64,000 nt of DNA, taken from positions 1 to 64,000 of the forward strand of contig NZ_JAFKDE010000006.1 in assembly GCF_017255295.1 (NCBI RefSeq), given 5' to 3'. Positions 10,748 to 25,322 of this stretch are shown piece after piece (position 1 is the stretch's first letter; the number at the start of each line of letters is the position of its first letter). The position numbers and the translations under genes are program-made. The notes under the pieces were generated by a model. It did no database searches, was not told the origin of the DNA, and saw only the letters and a list, made by a program, of their open reading frames with translations. This DNA comes from Nitratireductor aquimarinus. GTDB taxonomy: Bacteria; Pseudomonadota; Alphaproteobacteria; Rhizobiales; Rhizobiaceae.

Positions 10748-11320
10748 CTACATGCCTTCCGGGCCGCGGTTCATGGCGGCAACGCCCGTGCGGCACACTT
10801 CGACCAGGCCGAGCGGCTTCATGATGGCGATGAACTGCTCGATCTTGGAGACACGCCCCGTGATCTCGAAGATGAAGTGCTCGGTGTTGGCGTCGATCAC
10901 CTGAGCGCGGAAAGCGTCTGCCAGGCGCAGCGCCTCGACGCGGTCCTCGCCCTGTCCGCGAACCTTGACCAGCGCCAGTTCACGCTCCATCGGGCGGTCA
11001 TGGCCGCGCTCATCGGCGACGATGGAGAGGTCCACCACGCGGTGCACCGGAACGATGCGCTCGAGCTGATGCTTGATCTGCTGAAGCACATGGCCCGTGC
11101 CGCGCGTCACGATGGTGATGCGCGAAAGGTGGCGTTCGTGCTCGGTCTCGGAGACGGTGAGGCTGTCGATGTTGTAGCCGCGACCGGAGAACAGGCCGAT
11201 CACGCGGGCAAGAACGCCCGGTTCGTTGTCGACGAGGACGGCCAGGGTGCGCGTCTCGGCAACCTGGGTTTCCTTGGTGATGAAATAGGCAGAGCCGGTG
11301 GGTTGTAGCTGCGCGTTCAT
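10748..11320 (-). CDS. ilvH: Acetolactate synthase small (regulatory) subunit
   Basis: A 190-residue regulatory subunit that binds IlvI and confers valine feedback. The N-terminal ACT domain (TLAVLVDNEPGVLARVIGLFSGRGYNI) is followed by the conserved DSLTVSETEHERHLSRITIV and the ALS small-subunit C-terminal domain. The start at 11320 (MNAQLQPTG) is preceded by AAGAGA. It lies 83 bases downstream of ilvI; the spacer holds a terminator-like hairpin that could set the subunit ratio. Confidence 0.97.
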   Translation of the reverse strand: MNAQLQPTGSAYFITKETQVAETRTLAVLVDNEPGVLARVIGLFSGRGYNIDSLTVSETEHERHLSRITIVTRGTGHVLQQIKHQLERIVPVHRVVDLSIVADERGHDRPMERELALVKVRGQGEDRVEALRLADAFRAQVIDANTEHFIFEITGRVSKIEQFIAIMKPLGLVEVCRTGVAAMNRGPEGM

Positions 11321-13206: not shown

Positions 13207-13275
13207 CTTGGTCTTTCCGTTCTCTCTACCGGCGATTTGTTTAGCTGCCCAACGCCCCCAAGGAAACACCAGGCC

Positions 13276-13301
13276 AATAAAAAAGGCCCCCGAGGGAGCC
13301 T
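13276..13301 (-). terminator. Attenuator terminator of the ilvI leader
   Basis: A G+C-rich stem (AGGCTCCC pairing with GGGGGCCT around a very short loop, 13284-13301), followed on the minus strand by TTTTTTATT. It lies between the leader peptide and the ilvI start. Upstream, GCGCATGGG (13348-13356 on the complement) can pair with CCCATGCGC (13309-13317), giving the competing structure expected of ribosome-mediated attenuation. Confidence 0.8.
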
Positions 13302-13334
13302 GTGTTTCGCGCATGGGGTGCTTTCGCCAGACAG

Positions 13335-13388
13335 CTACGCTGCCTTGCCCATGCGCCTTCCTACGATAAGAATGTTTCCTGTCATCAT
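13335..13388 (-). CDS. ilvI leader peptide, 17 residues with an ILIV run
   Basis: The minus strand reads MMTGNILIVGRRMGKAA and stops at TAG. It contains Ile-Leu-Ile-Val consecutively at residues 6-9, exactly the amino acids made by the pathway. It is followed by a competing hairpin and then a terminator with a T-run before ilvI. By analogy with classical ilv attenuators, stalling at these codons when charged tRNAs are scarce would favour the antiterminator. There is no ribosome binding site; the promoter spacing places transcription initiation within one or two bases of the first ATG, so the peptide is probably translated from a leaderless mRNA. Confidence 0.8.
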   Translation of the reverse strand: MMTGNILIVGRRMGKAA

Positions 13389-13396
13389 GGCTGCGC

Positions 13397-13425
13397 ACAA
13401 TAAGGTTGCTTGAACGTATCGTCAA
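13397..13425 (-). promoter_or_regulatory. Promoter of the ilvI leader
   Basis: On the minus strand, TTGACG (13420-13425) and TATTGT (13397-13402) are separated by exactly 17 bases, a good sigma-70-type promoter. Only eight bases separate the -10 from the leader-peptide ATG. Confidence 0.75.
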
Positions 13426-13538: not shown

Positions 13539-15419
13539 ATGATGTTTGTGGAACGCGGAACGACGCAGGGCGAGACGACATCTCAGGAAAGGCGCGCAGC
13601 CGATCAGCCGCGCACGCGCCTGCTTGGCCATGTCGTGCATTGCGACGGCTCCCGCGCCACCATTGCCGCCGAGACCGACACCGATGACAGCGGCCAGTCC
13701 AATTACTGGACCGTCGGCAAGATGATCTCCATCAATCTCGGGGCGATCCGCACGGTCGGTCTCGTCTATGCGGTGGAGCGGCCCGAACACCGCTGGCGCG
13801 ATGGCGAGGCGAACCCCATCGCGATCTCGGTCGAACTGGTCGGCGAAGTGCGCGACCGTGGCGCCGAGCCCGTGTTCGACCGCGGTATCACGGAATATCC
13901 GCATATCGGCGCCCCCGCCCACCGCATCCGCTCGCGCGACCTGCAGGCGGTCTACGATCTGGCCGGCCGCCAGCAGGCCGTGATCGGCAAGCTGTCGCAG
14001 GACGAAAGCATCGATGCCTGTATTGCGGTGGATGACACGCTGAACCGCCATTTCGCAGTGGTCGGCACCACCGGTGTCGGCAAATCGTCGGCCGTATCGC
14101 TTCTTCTGCGCAAGACCATCGCCTCACGCCCGGATCTGCGCGTGCTCATTCTCGACCCGCACAATGAATTCGCCTCCGCCCTGCCGGAATACGCGGTGCG
14201 CATCGACACCAACACGCTGGACCTGCCGTTCTGGTTGTTTCGCCTTGAAGAACTGGTGGAAGTGCTTTTCCGGGGCCGCGAGCCGGTGACGGAAGAGGTG
14301 GAACTGCTGCGCGAGATCATTCCCGCTGCCAAGCATCTCTACCGCAATCCGGGAAGCGCTGCCTCGCTGCGACGGTCAAACGACACGGGCGGGCTGACGG
14401 CGGACACGCCGGTCCCCTACCGCATGGCCGATGTGCTGAAGGAAATCGAGGAGCGCACCGGCCAGCTTGCCAACAAGTCCGACCGGCCGATCTATCGCAG
14501 CCTGCGCACACGCATCGAGGCTGCCCAGAACGATCCGCGTTACCGTTTCATGTTCGCCTCGCGCCTCATCGAGGATTCGATCCACGAAACGATCGGCAGG
14601 CTCTTCCGCATCCCCAGCCACGGCAAGACGGTGACCTGTTTCGAAATGGCCGGCATGCCGCCGGAGGTGGTCAATTCCGTCTGCTCGGTCATGGCCCGCC
14701 TCGCCTTCGACCTGGCGCTGTGGAGCAATGGAAAGCTCAACCTTCTGGTCGTCTGCGAGGAAGCACACCGCTACATGCCCGCCGATCCGCGCCTGGGCTT
14801 TGCGCCGACGCGCCATGCGCTCGCACGCATCGCCAAGGAAGGCCGCAAATATGGCTGCTATCTCGGTGTGGTGACACAGCGCCCGGGCGAACTCGACCCG
14901 ACGGTCCTGTCGCAGTGCTCCACCGTGTTCGCCATGCGGCTCGCCAACGATCAGGACAAGGCGATCATCCGTTCGGCAATCGCGGACTCCTCTGCGTCCA
15001 TGCTGTCATTCCTCTCGGCCATGGGCCGGCGCGAAGCCATCGCCTTTGGCGAGGGTGTCGCGACGACCATGCGCATGAAGTTCGAACAACTGCCGGCGCA
15101 TGCGCTTCCGGGCCAGCGGGACGATGCGAAGAAGAAGGCGTCGCGCCCCGAAGACATCGACAATGACGTGGATCTCGCCTCGATCGTGGCAAATCTGCGC
15201 GATGCCGGCCGCTCCATGCGCTCGCAGGTGCAGTCGCCACCGGATATCGGCTCGCCCGTCCCCGCAGACATGCAGGCCGGCGACCGCGACTACCGGCCCC
15301 GGCCGGCAAGGACGCCTGTTCAGCCCGAGACCTTCGAACAATGGTCCCGGCCGTCCGACGATTACGCGCGTCCGGCGAGCTACACAGTGCCGTCGCGCAG
15401 CCATTTCGGAAACCGCTAG
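13539..15419 (+). CDS. HerA-like ATPase/helicase (DUF87)
   Basis: A 626-residue protein with the HerA-FtsK organisation. An N-terminal HAS-barrel-like beta domain covers about residues 25-150. Walker A is VVGTTGVGKSSAV near residue 175, a LRVLILDPHNEF strand follows, Walker B is LLVVCEEAHRYMP, and an arginine-rich region (VVTQRPGELDPTVLSQC) precedes the end of the core. The last 100 residues are low-complexity and Pro/Arg-rich. HerA forms hexameric rings that process DNA ends with the NurA nuclease in archaea; no NurA is adjacent here. It is divergent from ilvI. The first of two adjacent ATGs is used; the ribosome binding site is weak. Confidence 0.88.
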   Translation: MMFVERGTTQGETTSQERRAADQPRTRLLGHVVHCDGSRATIAAETDTDDSGQSNYWTVGKMISINLGAIRTVGLVYAVERPEHRWRDGEANPIAISVELVGEVRDRGAEPVFDRGITEYPHIGAPAHRIRSRDLQAVYDLAGRQQAVIGKLSQDESIDACIAVDDTLNRHFAVVGTTGVGKSSAVSLLLRKTIASRPDLRVLILDPHNEFASALPEYAVRIDTNTLDLPFWLFRLEELVEVLFRGREPVTEEVELLREIIPAAKHLYRNPGSAASLRRSNDTGGLTADTPVPYRMADVLKEIEERTGQLANKSDRPIYRSLRTRIEAAQNDPRYRFMFASRLIEDSIHETIGRLFRIPSHGKTVTCFEMAGMPPEVVNSVCSVMARLAFDLALWSNGKLNLLVVCEEAHRYMPADPRLGFAPTRHALARIAKEGRKYGCYLGVVTQRPGELDPTVLSQCSTVFAMRLANDQDKAIIRSAIADSSASMLSFLSAMGRREAIAFGEGVATTMRMKFEQLPAHALPGQRDDAKKKASRPEDIDNDVDLASIVANLRDAGRSMRSQVQSPPDIGSPVPADMQAGDRDYRPRPARTPVQPETFEQWSRPSDDYARPASYTVPSRSHFGNR

Positions 15420-24783: not shown

Positions 24784-24979
24784 GATCTTTTCCCTCACTT
24801 TTCAACGTGGGTACGCTTCCACAGAAACGGCCGGACCTCACGCAACCTGTGCGTTTGCCAAAGCCGCCTCACACCAAAAAAGACATTTATTAAAGGTTGA
24901 CGCTAAGTCAATGCGAAAACCCCACGGGTTTCACGCGAAGACCCCTTTTCTTGCGAGGGCCGGGTCACTATATTCGCTG

Positions 24980-25322
24980 CGTCGGCTTGACCGACTATGG
25001 CGATAAACTGCCGGTGAAATAAGCCATTCGGACCCGGGGGCAGTGCCCGGCGCCTCCACCACAAACCGCCGCAGGGCTCCGGCCCAAGGGCGGCTTCTGA
25101 TGGGGGCGAAACAGGATCGACGAGGGTGTAAAGATCGGACTTTCGCTCGGCATGATACCACCGTTATCGGGTCAAACTAGTAGTTGCAAACGACAACTAT
25201 GCGGAGGCACGTCTCGCTGCTTAATGCAGTGCGACAGCTTCACTTGAACTCCTAAGGGTTCGCACCTTTAGGCGGGGTCCGGAGGCACCTGGCAACAGAA
25301 GCCTCCACTCTTGCCCCGCTCT
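24980..25322 (+). ncRNA. ssrA: Two-piece (circularly permuted) tmRNA
   Basis: The order is permuted, as in alphaproteobacteria. An upstream acceptor piece ends at 25062 in GCGCCTCCACCA, with a T-arm CCGGG/CCCGG. A 39-base intervening segment follows. The coding piece begins at 25102 with GGGGGCGAAACAGGATCGAC; its GGGGGC pairs with the acceptor GCCTCC. The tag frame starts at GCA (25186) and reads ANDNYAEARLAA before TAA at 25222-25224. A pseudoknot region follows, with GCGGGG pairing with CCCCGC near 25315. The outer boundaries are approximate; a TATATT at 24969-24974 may be the -10. The RNA rescues stalled ribosomes and tags proteins for ClpXP. Confidence 0.93.

Follow-up and report, generated by a model that had tools for sequence, protein, structure and literature searches.

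The ilvIH genes of Nitratireductor aquimarinus lie on the minus strand of the window, by which we mean the whole 64,000-nucleotide stretch of contig NZ_JAFKDE010000006.1 analysed here, and they are preceded by a compact array of regulatory features (Table 1). The window IlvI is 92% identical to that of N. pacificus, with which it is also placed in an IlvI tree. Upstream of the gene, the sequence confirms two elements of the original prediction: a promoter separated from the leader ATG at 13388 by eight bases (13396-13389), and a GC-rich stem with a T run just ahead of ilvI. The first T of this run is itself paired in the terminator hairpin. Ahead of the terminator lies a 9-bp stem, P1, whose left arm falls within the leader reading frame and whose upper part contains the leader stop codon. 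In the window, GAAACACAGGC (13308-13298) and GCCTGGTGTTTC (13274-13263) also form an imperfect inverted repeat around the terminator hairpin, with the T run enclosed. Two neighbours can be noted in passing: a divergent plus-strand gene (13539-15419) encodes a 626-aa protein with a GTTGVGKS nucleotide-binding motif, recognised by eye, and an alphaproteobacterial permuted tmRNA lies at 24942-25309 (RF01849, 302.6 bits).

Table 1. Features of the ilvI upstream region and the downstream genes in the window
Feature	Coordinates	Strand	Basis
-35 box TTGACG	13420..13425	-	promoter scan
-10 box TATTGT, spacer 17	13397..13402	-	promoter scan
RF02502 (Atu_C8) match, full length	13268..13389	-	104 bits, model positions 1-122
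Leader ORF MMTGNILIVGRRMGKAA, including stop TAG (13337-13335), probably leaderless	13335..13388	-	sequence and comparison
Regulatory codons ATT CTT ATC GTA (Ile-Leu-Ile-Val)	13362..13373	-	leader ORF
P1 left arm GCGCATGGG, within leader ORF	13348..13356	-	fold, covariation
P1 right arm CCCATGCGC	13309..13317	-	fold, covariation
Intrinsic terminator hairpin, 7 bp	13284..13301	-	fold, terminator scan
Terminator T run, six T	13279..13284	-	sequence, fold
ilvI, acetolactate synthase large subunit, 600 aa	11404..13206	-	NF006581, 1207 bits (cut-off 974)
ilvH, acetolactate synthase small subunit	10748..11320	-	ALS_ss_C, ACT_AHAS_ss; probable start at MNAQ

The element coincides in its boundaries with a full-length match to the Rfam family RF02502 (Atu_C8, "Rhizobiales sRNA"), which reportedly goes back to Wilms et al. 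2012; it scores 104 bits against a cut-off of 50 (E 1e-21). Rfam treats the family as an sRNA gene, whereas we read it here as an ilvI attenuator with a leader reading frame. It is this match, together with conservation in relatives, that lifts the element above chance. A span of 500 bases contained one promoter-like site (0.3 expected by chance) and one terminator-like site (0.5 expected), and the fold of the element, 2.1 standard deviations better than that of shuffled sequences, was equalled by 5 of 200 shuffles. Counting the window genome in each set, RF02502 matches were obtained in 15 of 20 relatives, in 161 of 297 order-level genomes, 49 of them scoring over the cut-off, and in 240 of 247 genomes of the family, with 234 over the cut-off; the 14 control genomes had no match. 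Of the seven genomes of the family that lack one, six measure 1.2-1.6 Mb and the seventh 2.0 Mb; four others of 1.0-1.5 Mb nevertheless carry a match, so a small genome is not by itself enough to account for the loss.

For comparative analysis we used 118 RF02502-type loci spanning 22 family and 47 genus codes, a sample of the matches. All 118 have a short leader in frame, 13-20 residues long, that includes a run rich in isoleucine, leucine and valine. The original prediction had named relatives devoid of these codons and of the terminator as evidence against attenuation; in this set the run is at least three residues long in 117 leaders and two in the remaining one, a count that is partly circular since the leader-picking script required at least two consecutive Ile, Leu or Val residues, and a T run preceded by a hairpin at least as stable as -8 kcal/mol is present in 118 of 118, likewise partly circular since the loci were collected with an RNA model that contains the terminator. 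The codons chosen for these runs are ones little used by the window ilvI gene: GTA accounts for 144 of 223 valine codons in the leader runs and for 2 of 41 in ilvI, CTT for 85 of 161 leucine codons (6 of 42 in ilvI), and ATT for 84 of 139 isoleucine codons (8 of 45). The window has two of the features expected of an attenuator of branched-chain amino acid genes, namely a short predicted leader ORF with codons for the end products and an intrinsic terminator between this leader and a structural gene of the pathway. The proposal that ilvI is controlled through an Ile/Leu/Val leader is well supported by the RF02502 match and by conservation in relatives.

We propose that ilvIH is subject to ribosome-mediated transcription attenuation and that the terminated product is what has been catalogued as an sRNA, a reading derived from sequence to which we assign a probability of roughly 0.85. 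RNA polymerase would start at the leader ATG or within 2 nt of it, and a ribosome would load on the 5′-terminal AUG without a Shine-Dalgarno (SD) site and then read ATT CTT ATC GTA. With ample charged Ile, Leu and Val tRNA, the ribosome would reach the stop codon inside P1 and transcription would mostly end at the terminator; the RNA released, about 110 nt long, would be the "sRNA" Atu_C8. Shortage of these tRNAs would stall the ribosome before P1 and, by analogy with attenuators of this class, allow more read-through into ilvIH. An alternative in which the element acts mainly as an sRNA in trans, its position before ilvI and its reading frame being secondary, would suit the Rfam classification of RF02502 as "Gene; sRNA" and has a parallel in rnTrpL, an attenuator RNA described as acting in trans in Sinorhizobium meliloti in the part of PMC7298713 that was covered. 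We consider this improbable, as ilvI lies directly downstream and in the same orientation at 114 of the 118 loci, and the recurrent frame and rare Ile/Leu/Val codons would be needless for a function carried by RNA only. The element could also be both a trans-acting sRNA and an attenuator. Taken as a whole, the pattern suggests that the RF02502 "sRNA" family is better described as an attenuator. In a literature search that left subscription journals mostly uncovered, we found no description of RF02502 as an ilvI attenuator, and the family was named only in a benchmark list (PMC5913331, covered in part).

A further component of the original prediction, a leaderless start for the leader peptide, gains comparative support. 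The gap between the end of the best-scoring -10 box and the start codon is 5-9 nt in 44 of the 118 loci (8 nt in the window). These 44 carry an exact TTGAC 35-38 nt upstream of the leader, a motif rare in controls, where 472 windows of 60 nt contain 28 hits. Short gaps characterize all sampled loci of the window's family (23 of 23) and of families f23 (9 of 9) and f28 (7 of 7); they are also seen in family f22 (2 of 3 loci), in f6 (2 of 12) and in f16 (1 of 9). The best-scoring RF02502 matches of the window's family supplied 26 more loci, all of which show this TTGAC spacing, so that it is found in 49 of 49 loci examined under that family code. Among the other 74 loci, 70 have their best promoter, in some cases with a weak score, at a distance of at least 24 nt, and four (L060, L073, L063 and L079) at 14-20 nt; over the whole set, the gap between -10 box and start is bimodal. 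Start signals differ between the two classes as well: the short-gap leaders begin with ATG in 44 of 44 cases and have an SD-like motif in 3, in contrast to 14 GTG starts and 50 SD-like motifs among the other 74 (Fisher p 2e-11 for the motif; background 62 of 472). The window locus (L013) combines the short gap with an AUG start and has no SD-like motif, the match before its ATG extending over just three bases, GTG. The RF02502 model begins one base before the window ATG, and two bases inside the ATG in L009-L012, a boundary that reportedly reflects a mapped 5′ end.

If transcription instead began farther upstream, the leader would have a conventional short 5′ untranslated segment and its spacing would be accidental. 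The start at the leader ATG is indeed deduced from spacing, and the promoter-to-ATG pattern on its own is not special, TTGAC-N32-ATG having 48 exact matches in the genome and 13 in the reversed control. An accidental spacing is nonetheless unlikely, given the bimodal gap, a short-gap class with no non-ATG starts and few SD motifs, the uniformity of the spacing within the window's family, and an RF02502 boundary near the leader ATG both in the window and in L009-L012. Leaderless transcripts of S. meliloti are all reported to begin with AUG (PMC3616915, as far as that source was covered). From the comparison of these sequences, we infer a leaderless start for the leader peptide, and regard it as well supported.

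The same attenuator seems to exist in SD-led and leaderless forms. Named short-gap examples come from Mesorhizobium, Brucella, Ochrobactrum, Phyllobacterium, Aminobacter, Nitratireductor, Aquamicrobium, Aquibium and Bartonella tamiae, and named examples with distant promoters from Bradyrhizobium, Bosea, Microvirga, Methylocella and Rhodoblastus; the scan that supplied these names fixed the range of promoter distances and so yields names, not frequencies. Its listing covers 80 of 118 stretches, and 41 of those listed were followed up, chosen by organism name; the 39 listed stretches naming other groups are presumably chance matches, and six of the 41 (L169, L173, L175, L199, L221 and L229) gave no ilvI match. 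Against the family rule, L163, a metagenome-assembled genome named "Rhizobiaceae group", has distant promoter spacing. On an IlvI tree of 82 rows (87 hand-picked rows were labelled and five with short IlvI matches dropped), six changes of start type are required, at least four of them on starred branches, a count that may be too high given that the tree is a quick, single-gene one. With six such changes, the alternation amounts to a natural experiment on leaderless initiation in a stalled-ribosome switch, and would show whether this mode of initiation alters the way such a switch works.

Understanding how the stalled ribosome might act on termination requires a closer look at the RNA. P1 had been described as a competing stem. 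In the window, GCGCATGGG/CCCATGCGC has no bases in common with the terminator and both hairpins are present in the minimum-energy fold, so competition is not apparent from the sequence. In the RNAalifold result, too, P1 and the terminator coexist as neighbours, along with an inner hairpin, and a rough automatic measure puts P1 4-7 nt from the terminator in 80 of 118 loci. P1 is under selection: with one locus per genus code (47 of the 118), it is paired in 96.2% of cells, and seven of its nine pairs have changed on both sides. When P1 and terminator are pooled, 90.6% of cells are paired versus 80.9% in shuffles and 30-65% with the partner slid, and 84 cells have changed on both sides versus 30.0 in shuffles, a value reached by none of 500. 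Neither the number of pairs changed on both sides (reached by 20 of 500 shuffles) nor that of additional pair types (62 of 500) is as telling. At its base, P1 reads GCGC/GCGC with few exceptions (alignment A1, columns 6-9 with 59-62; at least 43 of 47 for each pair), while the rest of the stem covaries; the near invariance of the base hints at a sequence-specific role.

Our search for a base-paired antiterminator returned no clear candidate. Across the 47 genus codes, 12-nt windows upstream did not pair clearly better with the terminator 5′ arm of their own locus than with foreign ones (z from -1.3 to +3.4), whereas the arms of P1 and of the terminator, as positive comparison, gave z values of -13.8 and -8.7 in the same test; weak signals were seen with the terminator 3′ arm (z to -2.5), and the power of the test is low for pairs of conserved segments. 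Antiterminator pairing was likewise absent from the alignments of seven family groups, and over the 118 loci antiterminator scores showed no excess over shuffles (0.646 vs 0.699), 41 loci scoring above their own shuffle mean. Five Escherichia coli leaders pass this shuffle test (thrL, ilvL, hisL, pheL and leuL; 0-3 of 20 shuffles reach the native value), but trpL (12 of 20) and ivbL (5 of 20) fail it, so the test is weak and does not prove the absence of an antiterminator. By equilibrium folding, the terminator is lost at some exposed stretch in 16 of the 118 loci, the window not among them: here it is kept at a level of at least 0.91 at every ribosome position tried. Since the terminator is lost in just two of seven E. 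coli control leaders (pheL and ivbL), this test says little. In another reading, ribosomes would enter the ilvI frame at an AUG in the P1 right arm and translate through the terminator, thereby preventing termination. The window ilvI frame is open from 13443 and has an ATG at 13314; at the 114 loci that precede ilvI, however, the terminator is free of stop codons in this frame in 41 cases (36%), as against 80 of 228 (35%) for the two other frames. Openness is at chance level, and we reject this mechanism as exceedingly improbable.

Attenuation of alphaproteobacterial ilv genes by leader peptides is already known, as are leaderless leader peptides. In the covered parts of the respective sources, attenuators are described for Caulobacter ilvIH and ilvBN (PMC4117421), an "ilvIH cis regulatory" element of S. 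meliloti is tabulated (PMC2573895) and an ilvB leader peptide is cited (PMC1273637); these systems likewise join branched-chain amino acid codons and a terminator to acetolactate synthase genes, and a leaderless start is not mentioned in those parts. A likeness for the start is found in a related bacterium, S. meliloti, where the trpL/rnTrpL attenuator RNA begins with the ATG of the trpL ORF (PMC7298713) and its leaderless leader peptide is visible in ribosome profiling (PMC7298713, PMC10117765; both covered in part). It differs in having Trp codons and in preceding trpE(G), and its leaderless start is reported from experiment, whereas that of the ilvI leader is deduced; a 19-residue Agrobacterium trpL peptide used as query gave no convincing match in the window genome. 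In the portion of PMC11857589 covered, the ilv leader peptide of the Corynebacterium glutamicum ilvBNC attenuator is also discussed as leaderless mRNA, but that system belongs to another phylum and follows a three-hairpin terminator/antitermination model that was not found here. Mycobacteria, too, reportedly have short leaderless attenuator ORFs that respond to cysteine (Canestrari et al. 2020); they differ in phylum and in their cysteine codons and are cited as translation attenuation in the covered part of PMC13236596. The alternation between SD-led and leaderless forms, the missing antiterminator and the transporter copies considered below were not found described in the literature searched, of which subscription journals formed a small part.

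The element is not confined to ilvI. A second RF02502 element precedes a major facilitator superfamily (MFS) gene instead of ilvI in L021 and L022 (family f6) and in L040 and L041 (genus code g12, within the window's family), and L173 and L199, from named Rhizobiales genomes, show the same arrangement. The six MFS proteins are 47-82% identical; at 217 bits, the L021 product exceeds the NCBIfam threshold of 201 for Bcr/CflA efflux transporters, and the L041 product, a fragment, falls below it (103 bits). With the L173 transporter as query, matches were obtained in 50 of 247 family genomes, and at 7 of the 30 loci read, by script and by eye, a leader and terminator stand before the transporter gene. 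RF02502 reached its cut-off in 5 of the 11 scanned among these 30 loci (L328, L329, L330, L333 and L350) and in 4 of 4 further ones (L173, L199, L279 and L280), and in L331 and L336 the attenuator was assigned by eye only. Promoter spacing is short in 9 of these 11 attenuated loci, the exceptions being L331, with a spacing of about 55 nt, and L336, where TTGAC is absent. On a tree, the transporters with an attenuator group together, with 3 changes versus 9.5 in shuffles; its rows were picked by likeness to the attenuated query, and L336 stands apart and L350 on a long branch.

These copies point to a group of transporters possibly under the control of branched-chain amino acids, and their sequences suggest that amino acid starvation may govern their expression. 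We advance more tentatively, at somewhat less than even odds, the joint proposal that the leaderless attenuator is a mobile module, recruited to Bcr/CflA-type genes as well as to ilvI, so that branched-chain amino acid starvation would induce a transporter, and that it may work without a base-paired antiterminator. A branched-chain amino acid leader peptide joined to an MFS gene was not found in the literature, within a search that reached few subscription journals. In L332, a TPP riboswitch (RF00059, 74.4 bits, 1277-1392) takes the place of the attenuator before a transporter homologue whose gene has an in-frame stop. Since attenuator and TPP riboswitch both report on acetolactate synthase, the one through its products and the other through its cofactor, we speculate that the transporter expels inhibitors of this enzyme or of its pathway. 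In L273 and L278 (the latter the same locus as L039), both from genomes with two RF02502 elements, a further ilvI-like gene has its own attenuator.
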